From NCBI GenBank assembly GCA_022827095.1, contig JAJDTP010000019.1, forward strand, positions 1 through 64,000: a stretch of DNA of 64,000 bases, read 5' to 3'. The notes under the pieces were generated by a model. That model worked only from the letters and a program-made list of their open reading frames with translations. It was not told where the DNA came from and searched no databases. Shown piece by piece: positions 1,026 through 46,749 of this stretch. How positions within the stretch are numbered: position 1 is the stretch's first letter; every line of letters begins with the position of its first letter. The stretch is from Dehalococcoidia bacterium (lineage in GTDB: Bacteria > Chloroflexota > Dehalococcoidia > Lucifugimonadales > UBA3495). Position numbers and translations under genes: made by a program.

Positions 1026-1982
1026 TTAGTCCTGCGGGATGAGGGGAACCACCTCGCGGGAGAACTGCTCCATGTTTTCCTGGAGCGACGCCACGCTGTC
1101 GCCTGCCGGGAAGCCGATGATGAAGTTGGAGACGCCCAGGTCCATGTACTGGCGTAGGTCGGCGGCAATCTGCTCCGGGCGGCCATTCATCCACGGGCGG
1201 GAGCCGTCAGCGGCGTTGTTGAAACGGACGTCGGTGCTGAAGGTCAGGTCAACGGCGTTCTCGTCGCGCCCTGCCTGTACCGTCAGGCGGCGCAAGCGGG
1301 CGATGAGGCCGGACAGTTCCTCCGGCTCCAGTATCGCGGGGGGACGCAGGCCGATGGGCATCCAGCCGTCGCCCAGGGTAGCGGCGCGGCGGATGGCCGG
1401 GTTGGTATGCCCGCCGATCCAAATGGGCGGATGGGGTTTCTGCACCGGCTTGGGCAGGAAGCCGGCGCCACTGATGTCGTAGTGCTCGCCGTGGAACTCG
1501 GGGTTGTCCGAGGTCCAGAGTTCCTTGAAGATCTGGATGTACTCGTCGGTGACCTGGCCGCGCTGGGCGTAGGTGTCGAGACCCATGGCCTGGAACTCCT
1601 CCTCCATCCAGCCGACGCCGGCGCCCAGGATCAGACGGCCGCCGCTGAGCACGTCCAGGGTGGCCAGGATCTTGGCGGTGAGCACCGGGTTGCGGTAGGG
1701 GAGGATGAGCACGTGGGTGCCCAATTTGACGTGGGTGGTGCAGCCGGCCAGGAAGTTCAGGGCGGCCAGGGGTTCGAAGTAGGTGTTTTCCCGCTGGAAA
1801 GGCGCCACGCCGTCGGCGGCGTAGGGGTAGAAGGACGAGACCTCGTGAGGGATGATGATGTGGTCGCTGACCCAGACGTGGTCGAAGGACAGGTCCTCGG
1901 CGCGCTGGGCGAGGCTGCGCAGGTTGTCGGGAGAGGCCATGGCCCCACGGCTGGGGAGGGAGCATCCAAAGGTGACGGGCAT
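1026..1982 (-). CDS. LLM-class F420-dependent oxidoreductase (luciferase-like)
   Basis: This 318-residue protein has the features of the bacterial luciferase-like monooxygenase fold (TIM barrel). They include an N-terminal VTFGCSLP strand, a SFDHVWVSDH segment, a GTHVLILPYRNP strand, GGRLILGAGVGWMEEEF, and a PPIWIGGHT strand near residue 190. The family usually transfers hydride between reduced F420 (or FMN) and an organic substrate. The substrate cannot be read from sequence. The length is normal for the TIGR03619-type subgroup of F420-dependent members. The gene stands alone on the minus strand and is divergent from the PaREP1-like genes. Such genes are abundant in SAR202-type Chloroflexota, which supports the host guess. 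F420 rather than FMN use is inferred from the subgroup. Confidence 0.88.
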   Translation of the reverse strand: MPVTFGCSLPSRGAMASPDNLRSLAQRAEDLSFDHVWVSDHIIIPHEVSSFYPYAADGVAPFQRENTYFEPLAALNFLAGCTTHVKLGTHVLILPYRNPVLTAKILATLDVLSGGRLILGAGVGWMEEEFQAMGLDTYAQRGQVTDEYIQIFKELWTSDNPEFHGEHYDISGAGFLPKPVQKPHPPIWIGGHTNPAIRRAATLGDGWMPIGLRPPAILEPEELSGLIARLRRLTVQAGRDENAVDLTFSTDVRFNNAADGSRPWMNGRPEQIAADLRQYMDLGVSNFIIGFPAGDSVASLQENMEQFSREVVPLIPQD

Positions 1983-2036: not shown

Positions 2037-2045
2037 TGCTATACT
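2037..2045 (+). promoter_or_regulatory. Candidate extended -10 element upstream of the PaREP1-like triplet
   Basis: TG-C-TATACT is an extended -10 match about 44 bases before the first PaREP1-like start. No good -35 is visible 17 bases upstream. The assignment rests on the -10 hexamer alone. Confidence 0.35.
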
Positions 2046-2088: not shown

Positions 2089-2541
2089 ATGCCACCCCGA
2101 ACACGGCGACAATCTCCCGAACGGCGGGATGCCGCTATAAGGAAACATCTACCCAAGGCGCGGGAGTACTGGTCGAAATGGCCCTCGTACCTGGCTGAAG
2201 GCGATTTGTGCCAGGCCGGAGAAAAGGCATGGGGAGCCGTGGCCCAGTTGACCAAGGCAGTGGCCACGCATCGCGGTTGGCAGCACTCTGACCACGACAG
2301 GCTCAGGGAAGTCATTCGCGAACTGGCAGAGGAGAGGGACGAGCGCAGAGAAGCGATCAGCCGGGGTTTGACGTCTGCGGACGTATTGCACGGGAACTTT
2401 TACGAGGTGTTCCTGGACCGGTACCAGACGGAGCTGGCGCTGAATGACACGACCCTTCTGATCGAGGCGCTTTGGGCCGAACTTCCCGACGAGTACACGG
2501 GAGGCGCTTCTTTTGCCGAATGGTTCGAATCTGAGGAATAA
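2089..2541 (+). CDS. PaREP1/HEPN-like family protein, tandem copy 1 of 3
   Basis: This 150-residue protein begins MPPRTRR, exactly like the next two genes, so I chose the ATG at 2089 over the much longer upstream frame. Shared landmarks are a basic N-terminus, REYW near residue 26, LCQAGEKAWGAVAQLTKA near 40-57, a THRGW segment, VLHGNFYE near 110 and a C-terminal LPDEYTGG. These match the PaREP1 family as I know it: small helical proteins named in archaea and related to HEPN/nucleotidyltransferase C-terminal helices. No biochemical role is established. A canonical HEPN RNase motif (Rx4-6H) is not evident, so RNase activity should not be assumed. Two bases separate it from copy 2, indicating one transcript. 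Confidence 0.8.
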   Translation: MPPRTRRQSPERRDAAIRKHLPKAREYWSKWPSYLAEGDLCQAGEKAWGAVAQLTKAVATHRGWQHSDHDRLREVIRELAEERDERREAISRGLTSADVLHGNFYEVFLDRYQTELALNDTTLLIEALWAELPDEYTGGASFAEWFESEE

Positions 2542-2543
2542 CC

Positions 2544-2996
2544 ATGCCGCCCCGAACCCACCGCGAAACGCCAACCCGCCGGGATGCCCGCATCCACAAA
2601 CATCTGGCCCAGGCCAGGGAATATTGGATCAACGCATCTCTGGAATTGTCCCAACGGGACGTCTGCCAATCCGGCGAAAAGGGTTGGAGCTCCGTCTCCC
2701 AATTGACCAAAGCAGTGGCTACGCTGCGCGGCTGGGACCACTACGACCATGTAGCAGTTCTGGAAGCAATCGCCGCCGTGGCCGGGGAACTGCCCGAGCA
2801 GGCGGAGCACATCTACCGCGGCAAGGGTGCGGCGGAAAGGCTGCACGGCAACTTTTACGAAGTGTATATGACTGCTGACGAAGCCGTGTTCGCATTGGCC
2901 GATGCCCGCCCGCTCCTGGATATCCTCTGGGACCTGCTGCCCGACGAGTACACGGGCGGGGTGGGTTTCGCCGAATGGGTTGAGAGGGAAGGATAA
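2544..2996 (+). CDS. PaREP1/HEPN-like family protein, tandem copy 2 of 3
   Basis: This protein has 150 residues, the same length as its neighbours, and begins MPPRTHRETPTRRDAR. It keeps REYW, VCQSGEKGWSSVSQLTKA, LRGWDHYDH, RLHGNFYEVYM and LPDEYTGGVGF. The middle (IAAVAGELPEQAEHIYRG) differs most from the other copies. The ATG follows the previous stop in the string TAACCATGCCGCC, and the same junction recurs before copy 3. The whole unit of stop, spacer and start was therefore probably copied together. The function is unknown. It may be a helical RNA- or nucleotide-binding protein, by family analogy only. Confidence 0.8.
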   Translation: MPPRTHRETPTRRDARIHKHLAQAREYWINASLELSQRDVCQSGEKGWSSVSQLTKAVATLRGWDHYDHVAVLEAIAAVAGELPEQAEHIYRGKGAAERLHGNFYEVYMTADEAVFALADARPLLDILWDLLPDEYTGGVGFAEWVEREG

Positions 2997-2998
2997 CC

Positions 2999-3451
2999 AT
3001 GCCGCCCCGAGTCCGTCGTGAAACGCCAACCCGCCGGGATGCCCGCATTCGCAAGCACCTCCCGAAGGCTAGGGAATATTGGTCCAAATGGCCTGCGTAT
3101 TTGGCCGAGGACGATCTCTGTCAGGCCGGAGAAAAGGGCTGGGGAGCCGTGTCTCAACTGGCCAAAGCGGTGGCGACCCATCGGGGATGGAACCATTTCG
3201 GCCATGACGAAATCCGCGCCGTCATTCGCCAGATCGCCGACGAATCCGTTAACCCCGAAGCCATCAGGCGGTCTCTGATGTACGCCGAAGTACTGCACGG
3301 TAATTTTTATGAAATCAATCTGGACCGGGTGGACACAGAGTTAGCGCTGACGGACGCGAAGTTCCTGATGACAGTGTTGTGGGACCTTCTGCCGCACGAG
3401 TACACGGAAGGCATGACGTTTGACGATTGGCTAGCCTCCGGTGACAATTGA
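2999..3451 (+). CDS. PaREP1/HEPN-like family protein, tandem copy 3 of 3
   Basis: This is the third 150-residue copy, starting MPPRVRRETPTRRDAR. It is closest to copy 2 at the N-terminus (ETPTRRDARI) but shares SKWPAYLAEDDLCQAGEKGWGAVSQLAKAVATHRGW with copy 1, so the three look like a mosaic or a series of gene conversions. The C-terminus reads LPHEYTEGMTFDDWL. The stop TGA lies only three bases before the start of mnmA, so mnmA is probably read from the same transcript. No function is assigned. Confidence 0.8.
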   Translation: MPPRVRRETPTRRDARIRKHLPKAREYWSKWPAYLAEDDLCQAGEKGWGAVSQLAKAVATHRGWNHFGHDEIRAVIRQIADESVNPEAIRRSLMYAEVLHGNFYEINLDRVDTELALTDAKFLMTVLWDLLPHEYTEGMTFDDWLASGDN

Positions 3452-3454
3452 AGC

Positions 3455-4597
3455 ATGAGCGTCGCTGTCGGACATACCATTTCCAACCGCGTCGTCGTCG
3501 CCATGAGCGGCGGCGTTGACTCCTCGGTGGCAGCGCTGCTGCTGCACCGGCAGGGCTACGATGTCATCGGCGTGACGATGAAGCTGTACGACATCGACCA
3601 GGCGGACCTGCCGGAGTACTACCGGGGTTGCTGCACGCTGGACGACGTGGAGGATGCCCGGGCGGTGTGCCGCATCCTGGGAGTTCCCCACTACGTGTTG
3701 AACGTGCAGCGGGAGTTCCGCGCCTTCGTCATCGACTATTTCCGACGGGAGTATGAGAGCGGACGGACGCCGCACCCGTGCATCGCCTGCAACGACAAGA
3801 TCAAGTTCAGCTTCCTGGCACAACGGGCGAAGATGCTGCAGGCGTCCCACGTCGCCACCGGCCACTACGCCCGCATCGAGGCCGACGAAGCCGGCGGGTG
3901 GGCGCTGCGGCGCGGCGTTGACGCGGACAAGGACCAGTCCTACGTGCTGTTCGGCATGCGGCAGGAGCAGTTGGCGGGAACGCTGATGCCCGTGGGTCAC
4001 TACCCGAAGGCGGAGATACGACGGCTGGCTGAGGAGGCCGGGTTCCCCAACGCAGACAAGCCGGACAGCCAGGATATCTGCTTCATTCCCACCGGCGATT
4101 ACCGTGAGTTCCTGCGCGAGCGCACCGATGAGCGGCCGGGCGACATCGTGGACGCCAACGGCAACGTGCTGGGACAGCACGAGGGCATCCAGTACTTCAC
4201 GGTGGGCCAGCGCCGCGGCCTGGGTCTCTCCGGCGGCCCGCCGCGTTTCGTGATCCGCCTGGAGCCGGATACGCGCCAGGTGGTGGTCGGCTCCGAAACT
4301 GACCTGTACGAGGACACGCTGTACGCCGATCCGGTGTCCTGGGTATCCGGTGTTCCTCTGACCGGGCTGGTTGAGGTGACGGTCAAGATACGGTACAAGT
4401 TCGCGGAGGCTGCGGCGACGGTGACTGCCGTAGATGACGGTGCGCTGGTTCGGTTCCGGGAACCACAACGGGCGATCACCCCGGGACAGGCGGCGGTGTT
4501 CTACCGTGGCGACACGGTGCTGGGTGGTGGTCCTATCGCGGGTGCGCAGGCGGCCGAGCGCGGCACGGTTACTGGCGCTGCGCTGGTCAATGCCTGA
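3455..4597 (+). CDS. mnmA: tRNA-specific 2-thiouridylase MnmA
   Basis: MnmA activates C2 of U34 in tRNA-Lys, -Glu and -Gln with ATP and transfers sulfur to make 2-thiouridine. The 380-residue product has the PP-loop SGGVDSS at residues 18-24, the first catalytic cysteine in PHPCIACND (C109, with C112 beside it) and the second in QDICF near residue 208. It ends in the expected beta-barrel domain (YFTVGQRRGLGL near 245). The length is typical. The gene starts three bases after the PaREP1-like triplet and overlaps rnhB by eight bases, so translational coupling is likely. Another cytoplasmic tRNA-modifying enzyme, MiaB, lies at 52.9 kb. Confidence 0.97.
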   Translation: MSVAVGHTISNRVVVAMSGGVDSSVAALLLHRQGYDVIGVTMKLYDIDQADLPEYYRGCCTLDDVEDARAVCRILGVPHYVLNVQREFRAFVIDYFRREYESGRTPHPCIACNDKIKFSFLAQRAKMLQASHVATGHYARIEADEAGGWALRRGVDADKDQSYVLFGMRQEQLAGTLMPVGHYPKAEIRRLAEEAGFPNADKPDSQDICFIPTGDYREFLRERTDERPGDIVDANGNVLGQHEGIQYFTVGQRRGLGLSGGPPRFVIRLEPDTRQVVVGSETDLYEDTLYADPVSWVSGVPLTGLVEVTVKIRYKFAEAAATVTAVDDGALVRFREPQRAITPGQAAVFYRGDTVLGGGPIAGAQAAERGTVTGAALVNA

Positions 4598-5231: not shown

Positions 5232-5619
5232 TCCTCTGGAAGAATCCGCGCTTTCCTCGCGGCGGATTGGCGCCATCGGCGAGGAGTTGGCGCGGCATCA
5301 CCTTGAGGCCAAGGGGTACCGCCTCGTTGCGACCAGCTATCGCTGCCGGTGGGGCGAGATTGACCTGGTCGCCCGCGATGGTCTGGAATGGGTTTTTGTC
5401 GAGGTTCGCACGCGCTGGAGCGGCGCCTACGGCTCGCCTGAAGAGTCGCTGACGCCGGCCAAGGCCCGGCATCTTATCCTGGCTGCCCAGGACTTTCTGT
5501 CGCGTCATGAGGAAGCCGATGCGGATCCGGAATGGCGCATCGACCTGGTGGCCATTCGATTGGGCGCGGGTCGAAGGGTGATCAGCATCCAACACCTGAC
5601 AAGCGTGGTTTCGGAATAG
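5215..5619 (+). CDS. UPF0102/YraN family endonuclease-like protein
   Basis: The product has 134 residues from the ATG at 5215, overlapping the end of rnhB by 17 bases. The upstream extension seen in the same frame lies within rnhB and is not part of the protein. The fold is PD-(D/E)XK-like: GAIGEELARHHLEAKGY comes first, then GEIDLVARDGLEWVFVEVRTR carrying the metal-binding D and ExR/K positions. The C-terminus (RRVISIQHLTSVV) is shorter than in some relatives. YraN proteins resemble Holliday-junction resolvases, but their cellular role remains poorly defined. Position after rnhB is the usual one. Confidence 0.92.
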   Translation: MPTPDDPLEESALSSRRIGAIGEELARHHLEAKGYRLVATSYRCRWGEIDLVARDGLEWVFVEVRTRWSGAYGSPEESLTPAKARHLILAAQDFLSRHEEADADPEWRIDLVAIRLGAGRRVISIQHLTSVVSE

Positions 5620-5630
5620 CGGCCAACCAG

Positions 5631-5639
5631 TGCTACAAT
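5631..5639 (+). promoter_or_regulatory. Candidate extended -10 upstream of the Uma2 gene
   Basis: TG-C-TACAAT lies 45 bases before the Uma2 start and just after the yraN stop. This suggests an independent promoter. No convincing -35 is seen at the right distance. Confidence 0.35.
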
Positions 5640-5684
5640 CTTGCCAGTCTCCACCGTGTGATTTGTCGCGCCGAGAGGCCCATC

Positions 5685-6410
5685 ATGGCAACCAAACCCA
5701 CTGCACAGATCGGTTCCGAAAGTCAGCCCTCGCGCCTGACCTGGCTGCCCGACCCTCCAGTTTCGCCGGACATGCAGGAACAATTCCCTTACATCAGCCG
5801 TGCCTATGTGATCCTTGAGGACCATTTCAGCGCTCGGCCCGACGTGTTCGTCGGCGGCGAGGGCTACCTCTGCTACTCTCCAAGCGATATTCCCAATGCC
5901 CCCAAACCTGACTGTATGGTGGCCCTGGACCTGGAGGTTCCCCCGGAGGAAGTCACAGAAAGCAACGGCTACGCCATCAGCGAAATCGGCAAGCCGCCCG
6001 ACTTCGTGCTGGAGGTTGCGTCCAAGAGCACCGGAAGACGGGACTACATCGACAAGCGGGAAATCTACGCCGGCTATGGCGTGGCGGAATACTGGCGGTT
6101 CGACCATACCGGCGGGCGTTACCACGACACGGCGCTGGCCGGTGACCGGCTGGTTGGCGACGCGTACGAGCCGATTCCGGTTACCTCTGGAGCGGATGGC
6201 GTGATCCGCGGATACAGCACCGCGCTCGACCTTGAGTTGCATTGGTATGAGGAGACGCTCAGGTTTTGGGATCCGAACACTGGCGAATATCTGCCGGAGT
6301 TGACCGAAGTCAAGGCGCAGCGAGACGCGGCGATTGTCCAGCGGGACGCCGCCTTGGCGCGCATACAGGAACTGGAGGCGCAATTGGGCCGCCTCCAACC
6401 TGAAGATTAG
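5685..6410 (+). CDS. Uma2 family (DUF820) putative endonuclease with C-terminal coiled coil
   Basis: The ATG at 5685 gives 241 residues. The Uma2 core shows KPDCMVALDLEVP (metal-binding aspartate), PPDFVLEVASKSTGRRD (E-x-x-S/K position) and a KREIYAGYGVAEYW helix, the family's PD-(D/E)XK-type site. A heptad-rich C-terminal segment (residues about 205-235, RDAAIVQRDAALARIQELEAQL) predicts a coiled coil, which is common in these proteins. Uma2 proteins are very numerous in Chloroflexi and Cyanobacteria. Their substrate is unknown and nuclease activity is inferred from the fold. A second member lies at 55.5 kb. Confidence 0.87.
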   Translation: MATKPTAQIGSESQPSRLTWLPDPPVSPDMQEQFPYISRAYVILEDHFSARPDVFVGGEGYLCYSPSDIPNAPKPDCMVALDLEVPPEEVTESNGYAISEIGKPPDFVLEVASKSTGRRDYIDKREIYAGYGVAEYWRFDHTGGRYHDTALAGDRLVGDAYEPIPVTSGADGVIRGYSTALDLELHWYEETLRFWDPNTGEYLPELTEVKAQRDAAIVQRDAALARIQELEAQLGRLQPED

Positions 6411-10590: not shown

Positions 10591-10732
10591 CCCTTATTCA
10601 GACAGGTGGAGGGAACGGCCCTGTGAAGCCTGGCAACCTGTCCCGCCCACCCCGTGGGATGAGGTGCTAAATCCGGCGTCCCCGTTATGCAACGCGATGC
10701 GCGCATAACCAGGCGGGACGAAAGATGAGGGG
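10591..10732 (+). promoter_or_regulatory. SAM-I (S-box) riboswitch upstream of mtnA
   Basis: The conserved core is present in order. The 5' arm of P1 is CCCTTATTCAGACAGGTGG. The core AGGGAACGGCCCTGTGAAGCC-like block and GGCAACC follow, then AGGTGCTAAATCC. The 3' arm of P1, AAAGATGAGGGG, closes on the 5' arm. The inner stem GTTATGC...GCATAAC forms P4. These are the hallmark S-box motifs that bind S-adenosylmethionine. An intrinsic terminator follows at once. By the known mechanism, SAM binding should favour termination and switch mtnA off when SAM is plentiful. Short frames crossing it are not genes. Confidence 0.94.
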
Positions 10733-46389: not shown

Positions 46390-46749
46390 CTACGCCTGGG
46401 CCAACAGGGGCCGGAGCTTCTCCAGAAGTGCCTCCACGTCGTCGAGGCTTTCGGCCACCAGGTCGGCCGCCATGTCGTTCTCGCAGAAGTTTTCGTGGAG
46501 GTCGCTGGCCACGGCGAACAGGCGGCGTATGTCGCCGTCCCCGGTCTCGGCTCGTAGCCGGCTGGCCGCTCTGTGGTAGTGGCGGTGGCGGTTGTGCTCC
46601 CAGCCGCGCTGCTCGGCGATGGCCTTAAGCATCTGGGTGGCGGCGCCCCAGCCCTTTTCGGAGGCCTGCGGGAGGTCGCCGGCGGCCAGTTCCTGTCTGG
46701 CCTGATCCAGGAAATGCTCGCTGGCTTGTTGAAACTGCTGCGCGGTCAC
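46390..46749 (-). CDS. PaREP1/HEPN-like family protein, unlinked fourth copy
   Basis: This 119-residue protein is related to the three tandem genes at 2.1-3.5 kb. It keeps LPQASEKGWGAATQMLKAIAEQRGWEHNRH and LHENFCEND, the counterpart of LHGNFYE, but lacks their basic N-terminus and the LPDEYTGG tail. It ends with LDDVEALLEKLRPLLAQA. A separate ancient branch of the family is likely, not a recent copy. It is transcribed on the minus strand between rpsL and the PHA genes. The function is unknown. Confidence 0.78.
   Translation of the reverse strand: MTAQQFQQASEHFLDQARQELAAGDLPQASEKGWGAATQMLKAIAEQRGWEHNRHRHYHRAASRLRAETGDGDIRRLFAVASDLHENFCENDMAADLVAESLDDVEALLEKLRPLLAQA

Follow-up and report, generated by a model that had tools for sequence, protein, structure and literature searches.

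The PaREP1 proteins form a family whose tandem operons and expansions have already been published, for Pyrobaculum (PMC2701414, PMC3558965) and for Caenorhabditis (PMC3710099). In the sections of Anantharaman et al. 2013 (PMC3710099) that concern it, PDB entry 2q00 is placed under HEPN-T(Parep1/8), a HEPN family that keeps the histidine of the Rx4-6H motif while the arginine is not conserved, and the distribution is given as Archaea. As far as the passages on the family in these three papers go, PaREP1/8 is described as archaeal apart from one branch in nematodes, and none of them tested its function. The same sections of PMC3710099 propose HEPN proteins without the motif as RNA binders and tie HEPN expansions in eukaryotes to defence, and a paREP8 on pQBR plasmids is mentioned as potentially involved in cell defence (PMC13391042). 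Paralogue expansions in SAR202 bacteria are discussed, in the relevant part of PMC10444878, for catabolic enzymes. Among the papers searched on PaREP1/PaREP8 and HEPN we found no report of the bacterial expansion described here, of which the central element is an array of three diverged PaREP1 genes standing directly before the tRNA-thiolation gene mnmA. The array lies in a 64,000-nucleotide stretch of a Dehalococcoidia bacterium (assembly GCA_022827095.1, contig JAJDTP010000019.1, positions 1 to 64,000), hereafter the window. The family itself is already known, and what appears new is its expansion in a bacterium together with an unusually readable recombination history.

The array resembles the HEPN-T(Parep1/8) proteins, as presented in the sections of PMC3710099 cited above, in its PF05942 match, HEPN fold, kept histidine and lost arginine, many paralogues and tandem genes. 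It differs from them in being bacterial (Chloroflexota) rather than archaeal, in its basic N-terminal tail, in occupying fixed slots before housekeeping genes and in having exchanged termini that could be traced across 14 genomes. With the Pyrobaculum expansion, as far as it is set out in the passages of PMC2701414 and PMC3558965 on the family, it shares a lineage-specific expansion that is unpaired with MNT, whereas the array here has no RHH match by Pfam. We consider it probable that the locus is a diverged HEPN array held in a slot between a promoter-like element and mnmA, evolving by recombination and encoding RNA-acting proteins, possibly of a conflict or defence type. The features of the slot are as follows.

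Positions 1026 to 1982, minus strand: luciferase-like (LLM) monooxygenase gene, divergent, left border of the slot (PF00296, E 7.8e-53).
Positions 2037 to 2045, plus strand: candidate extended -10 promoter element TGCTATACT of the array-mnmA operon (TGCTATACTA in 14/14 genus genomes).
Positions 2089 to 2541, plus strand: copy 1, PaREP1/HEPN gene of lineage A, 150 amino acids (PF05942, 48.8 bits; orthologue G013_a 89% identical).
Positions 2544 to 2996, plus strand: copy 2, PaREP1/HEPN gene of lineage B, 150 amino acids (PF05942, 35.2 bits).
Positions 2999 to 3451, plus strand: copy 3, PaREP1/HEPN gene of lineage C, 150 amino acids (PF05942, 38.0 bits).
Positions 2999 to 3049, plus strand: probable gene-conversion tract from copy 2 in the first 17 codons of copy 3 (basic N-terminal tail), from informative sites.
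Positions 3455 to 4597, plus strand: mnmA, tRNA-specific 2-thiouridylase (PF03054, E 8.5e-74, and both C-terminal domains, by Pfam).

The three genes stand head to tail and each measures exactly 453 bp including the stop, as a first-pass annotation made from the letters alone had stated; the Pfam assignment of mnmA likewise bears out its placing of the array directly before that gene. Since all three copies exceed the curated PF05942 cut-off of 24.4 bits, their homology to PaREP1 is not a matter of chance, and the only other Pfam match was a sub-threshold one of copy 1 to thymidylate synthase. Both spacers, between copies 1 and 2 and between copies 2 and 3, are CC within TAACCATGCCGCC. The same junction had been claimed for every copy, but TAACCATGCCGCC is present at only two of the three starts, copy 1 being preceded instead by ...GTATCATG. 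Copy 3 runs into mnmA as TGA-AGC-ATG, with a 3-nt gap. At the protein level the identity is 66% between copies 1 and 3, 54% between copies 1 and 2 and 52% between copies 2 and 3. The equal length is partly a coincidence, because copy 3 carries a one-codon deletion and a one-codon extension relative to copies 1 and 2, and nine further aligned genes measure 444-456 bp.

The copies belong to three old lineages. The family tree places copy 1 with the first of the two slot genes of the relative G013 (G013_a) and the gene of G001 as lineage A (support 0.941), copy 2 with the single mnmA-linked copies of G006, G008 and G010 as lineage B (0.96), and copy 3 with the second gene of G013 (G013_b) and that of G009 as lineage C (0.969). 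Lineages A and C and the gene of G003 fall in one group (0.998). The core of each copy is nearer to the same-site copies of sister species than to its own neighbours. Because the copies group by lineage across species, they predate the split of several species, and the triplication, if taken as a recent event, does not hold. A tree of mnmA and the monooxygenase gene places G000, the genome of the window, and G013 as sisters (0.991) and unites G006, G008 and G010 in a clade (0.995). Finding lineage B in G000 as well as in that clade suggests either that the array predates their divergence or that lineage B was transferred later.

To assess recombination, we applied an exact test of our own, modelled on 3SEQ, to the 990 ordered triplets of 11 genes, with genes called by our own script; a further relative on a short contig whose linkage to mnmA is not shown (L125) was omitted from these tests and from the tail counts. 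The clearest signal is in G013_a, where an A body is followed by a copy-2-like C-terminal tract (alignment columns 401-447; corrected P 1.5e-4) with an identity of 0.90 to copy 2. This chimera fits a crossing-over between A and B genes that removed the B gene. Copy 3 combines a C body with a copy-2-like N-terminus: over the first 60 nt it shares 85% identity with copy 2 against 63% with copy 1, and beyond that it is closer to copy 1. Within the first 51 nt the informative sites are 14 shared with copy 2 only against 2 shared with G013_b only, and beyond them 43 against 84. The triplet test gave P 1.5e-4 with G009 as the other parent and 1.6e-3 with G013_b, both uncorrected, and 0.15 once corrected for the 990 triplets. 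The N-terminus of copy 3 was thus probably converted from copy 2. Copy 3 had been read from the start as a mosaic with an N-terminus shared with copy 2 and an interior shared with copy 1; the former part stands, whereas the resemblance between the interiors of copies 1 and 3 reflects common ancestry and not shuffling, since A and C group together. In G001 an A body ends in a tail resembling, in sequence and position, that of the copies standing last before mnmA; as a statistically proven A-C chimera it was dropped, the triplet test (best P 0.046) being unsupportive.

Judged on these alignments, mosaicism is firm in one case (G013_a) and suggestive in two (copy 3 and G001), so that the search for conversion tracts did uncover the recombination suspected among the copies. 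The bodies follow lineage, and only the termini look swapped between neighbouring genes. The array genes are under purifying selection. Between copy 1 and G013_a the nonsynonymous divergence (dN) is 0.078 and the synonymous divergence (dS) 0.880, and between copy 1 and the G001 gene they are 0.139 and 1.589; most other gene pairs are near or beyond saturation at synonymous sites. Tails aside, residues 71-96 and 111-134 are the most variable within lineages.

In order to follow the slot through related bacteria, we located mnmA in 56 of 60 genomes and examined 30 loci, 14 from the genus and 16 from outside it. A PaREP1 gene stands immediately before mnmA in 8 of the 14 genus genomes and at none of the 16 other loci, the relatives concerned being SAR202 / Dehalococcoidia metagenome-assembled genomes. 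There are three copies in G000, two in G013 and one each in G001, G003, G006, G008, G009 and G010; the slot is empty in G002, G004, G005, G007, G011 and G012. In each of the 14 genomes the divergently oriented LLM monooxygenase adjoins the slot (in G005 it is truncated by a contig edge), and TGCTATACTA lies between it and mnmA in 14/14, with or without intervening PaREP1 genes. We judged TGCTATACTA to be an extended -10 element by eye; because a generic sigma-70 promoter scan did not list it, its promoter activity is something that we infer. From the last PaREP1 stop to mnmA the distance is 3 nt in seven of the eight occupied genomes and 0 in G009. The G011 slot (locus L136, 3494-4601) holds about 1 kb of unrelated sequence with two open reading frames of no known family, neither matching Pfam, NCBIfam or PADLOC, followed by the final 33 bp of a PaREP1 gene ahead of mnmA. 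This 33-bp tail is a relic of gene loss.

The proteins are confirmed as members of the PaREP1/8 family of HEPN proteins with a predicted four-helix fold, in agreement with the HEPN-like core proposed initially. AlphaFold (AF2) was run with an input of 10 sequences from the window and related loci, and its model of copy 1 is confident (mean predicted local distance difference test, pLDDT, 90.8; predicted template modelling score, pTM, 0.87) with a HEPN four-helix fold. The top Foldseek rows are 2q00 (E 7.8e-3) and 2hsb (E 8.7e-3), both archaeal. In structural comparison 2hsb scored Z 13.9 (123 residues, 2.5 A) and 2q00 Z 13.2 (111 residues, 2.1 A); a Z of about 13 lies at the limit of chance scores for helical bundles, yet the top rows are all HEPN entries. 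Lower matches were sacsin HEPN (Z 12.1), 1ufb (Z 11.8), 6m6w (Z 8.7) and 7ae8 (Z 7.8). A profile search of solved structures also reaches 2jpu/2q00 (E 5.2e-4), and a sequence search of solved structures with a single copy as query returned chance matches only (a coronavirus 3C-like protease at E 0.077, and worse). All three copies keep H101, as do 37 of the 42 full-length G000 paralogues, within the consensus A-x-x-L-H-x-N-F-Y. Although the fold is shared with HEPN-MNT toxin-antitoxin systems (6m6w and 7ae8), the array has neither an adjacent MNT gene nor the Rx4-6H motif: the genome gave 5 Polbeta and 6 NTP_transf_2 matches, none of which adjoins PaREP1, the nearest being about 3 kb away.

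The array is part of a much larger set of genes. G000 (3.79 Mb, 35 contigs) holds 45 PF05942 matches, 41 of them above the cut-off, and a profile of our own, run solely on the stretches surrounding these matches, delineated 50 domains in 37 clusters; 12 multi-domain clusters, one of them a two-domain open reading frame, contain 25 of the 50. PF05942 matches number 10-58 per genome in all 13 genus relatives. At the family level 10 of 22 other genomes have 1-52 matches, and at the order level 9 of 24 have 1-23. Of 399 genomes drawn from across the phylum, 16 had a match, our own genome included; candidates in this draw were scored in part and its per-genome counts are not comparable with the others. 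This is a bacterial, lineage-specific expansion, within one SAR202/Dehalococcoidia genus, of a family known chiefly from archaea. The divergent fourth member that had been pointed out at 46390 is a real gene, although it is one of the 45 matches and belongs to another subfamily, distant from the array in the family tree. Its details, and those of two arrays observed in G025, a single-contig genome of another genus, are as follows.

Positions 46390 to 46749 of the window, minus strand: separate PaREP1 gene of another subfamily, GTG start at 46749, TAG stop at 46390, 119 codons (best PF05942 match of the genome, 75.1 bits).
G025 contig 1, positions 766582-768946: array of five PaREP1 genes at an exact 514-bp step.
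G025 contig 1, positions 3099570-3102649: array of six PaREP1 genes.

PaREP1 genes also occupy other slots. A near relative of lineage B lies between glyS (glycyl-tRNA synthetase, assigned by our reading of the protein) and the biotin-protein-ligase gene birA in 6 of the 12 genomes with birA; G011 has a short spacer at this site. In G001 the same slot, which holds PaREP1 in six relatives, is taken by another gene.

L235:2398-3201 (G001), minus strand: PD-Lambda-3_B-like Ymh HEPN gene encoding 268 amino acids (PF09509, Ymh, E 9.7e-39; PADLOC PD-Lambda-3_B, E 2.9e-66).

Ymh is listed as a HEPN family with a catalytic motif in the portion of PMC3710099 that treats it, and PD-lambda-3 is described as an abortive infection system in the corresponding passage of PMC13190303. 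The G001 protein shares with the array the HEPN superfamily and, in this one relative, the glyS-birA slot; it differs in belonging to another HEPN family, in its R-x4-H motif (RNPLAH) and in its larger size. At der, PaREP1 is found in 3 of 12 full-length loci. A survey of 17 same-strand genes lying no more than 120 bp downstream of a PaREP1 gene gave as partners, besides mnmA, SufBD, NurA, an FAD oxidoreductase, P5C reductase, an LPG synthase-like protein, an amidase, Der, SDR, PanE/ApbA, biotin ligase, FAA hydrolase and glyoxalase, with four lacking a match. Given the diversity of this list, no function is shared among the genes behind PaREP1. A rule by which PaREP1 would act as a leader gene was abandoned, as the initial depletion of close upstream neighbours vanished with better gene calls and only a downstream gap of 15 bp or less remained marginal. 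Among the 120 PaREP1 neighbours scanned in G000 we observed a type II restriction enzyme and methyltransferase and a match to a PtuA-like ATPase. Elsewhere, the Uma2 putative endonuclease family (PF05685) outnumbers PaREP1 in the 3.8-Mb genome with 83 matches, one of them at 5532-6410 of the window, which also contains an S-adenosylmethionine (SAM) riboswitch at 10591-10731 (68.7 bits).

Under the explanation that we favour, the slot between the promoter-like element and mnmA would have been filled within the history of the genus, after which unequal recombination between neighbours would alter both the number of genes in it (0-3) and their sequences, deleting genes and leaving mosaics in which the core retains its lineage while the basic N-terminal and the C-terminal tails are exchanged. 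The product of each gene would be a small, helical HEPN protein with RNA-binding or RNA-cutting activity at a site presumably centred on H101. The array would be co-transcribed with MnmA and translated beside it, and hence expressed whenever the housekeeping gene is. An RNA-directed role in conflict or defence, the likeliest of the functions considered, is the tentative part of this account, to which we give less than even odds; the support that can be cited for it consists of the fold, the conserved histidine, the expansion, the presence or absence of genes at the slots, the mosaics and the one HEPN-for-HEPN swap. Several observations weigh against it. The arginine of the catalytic Rx4-6H motif is absent, with no R 5-7 residues before H101 in copies 1-3, and the histidine is also gone in G003 (LRGDFYE) and in 5 of 42 G000 paralogues, so that some members may bind RNA only. 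The strong purifying selection acting on the core is hard to square with a rapid arms race, though residues 71-96 evolve faster. The 120 of 125 PaREP1 neighbours that were scanned are mostly metabolic with few defence-like matches, in a scan that had no matched control, and therefore give no general defence-island signal. PADLOC gave only AbiEi for copy 1 (E 0.0087) and nothing for copies 2 and 3, no relatives were found among viral contigs, phage or plasmid records, and the PD-Lambda-3_B slot swap is a single case.

Other explanations have to be considered. Equal lengths and identical junctions are what an assembly artefact or a recent exact triplication would produce, and six relatives do carry a single copy, the situation in which the other two copies might have been put down to assembly. 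Assembly duplication is nevertheless excluded, because the proteins are only 52-66% identical, G013 has two copies in another assembly and the single-contig G025 has longer arrays, five genes at the 514-bp step among them; with lineage orthologues present in other assemblies as well, the divergence refutes both versions and we give them practically no credence. A tRNA-directed partnership with MnmA, in which the array proteins would act on anticodon loops in connection with s2U34, is very unlikely in our view. The slot is occupied in 8 of 14 genus genomes with the 3-nt gap in seven, and the HEPN nucleases PrrC and RloC cut tRNA-Lys anticodon loops, according to the passages on them in PMC3710099 and PMC12409363; but those enzymes have an ABC-ATPase fused to HEPN, whereas the array proteins are 150-residue single-domain proteins with no such fusion and a motif without the arginine. 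Moreover the array is missing from 6/14 genus and 16/16 non-genus mnmA loci, and relatives precede birA, sufBD, proC, der and others. The link to MnmA and tRNA thiolation therefore looks incidental, given that PaREP1 relatives stand before unrelated genes and six of the 14 mnmA genes lack the array.

The spacing at the slot could also mean that the HEPN proteins adjust expression of the downstream gene, here mnmA, by binding the leader or their own mRNA and have no part in defence, which we consider unlikely. A same-strand gene begins within 15 bp downstream of 30/109 PaREP1 genes against 58/329 other genes (P 0.028), the 3-nt gap recurs at 7 of 8 occupied sites, and motif-less HEPN proteins are the ones proposed as RNA binders in the relevant part of PMC3710099. 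However, this P value is one of six comparisons and uncorrected, our own genome and three stray loci taken alone give 11/37 against 45/247 (P 0.12), 6 of 14 genomes have mnmA with no array before it, and the partner genes are functionally unrelated. That PaREP1 genes come and go within the genus, at mnmA (8/14), glyS-birA (6/12) and der (3/12), and range from 10 to 58 copies among its members would suit near-neutral, selfish hitch-hikers, gained and lost over time, that lodge at the edges of operons and rely on host promoters. We hold this to be quite unlikely, since a dN/dS of about 0.09 between the A orthologues and residues conserved across paralogues suggest a selected function; inspection of the slot borders by eye, with no systematic test, revealed no target-site signature.

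Returning to the recombining HEPN array as the preferred explanation, a bolder and rather improbable extension of it would be that SAR202-type housekeeping operons contain exchangeable effector slots at fixed positions, among them promoter-mnmA and glyS-birA. HEPN genes from more than one family would be inserted there, amplified, joined through unequal crossing-over and lost again, and the array would in this way generate mosaic effectors that target RNA and are driven by the promoters of essential genes. The HEPN-for-HEPN swap between glyS and birA is a location-based hint of what the proteins do. The expansion falls in SAR202-type bacteria, and a genus in which all 14 genomes have 10-58 matches, and whose slot can be compared gene by gene between sister species, makes the growth, recombination and collapse of such arrays accessible to study.
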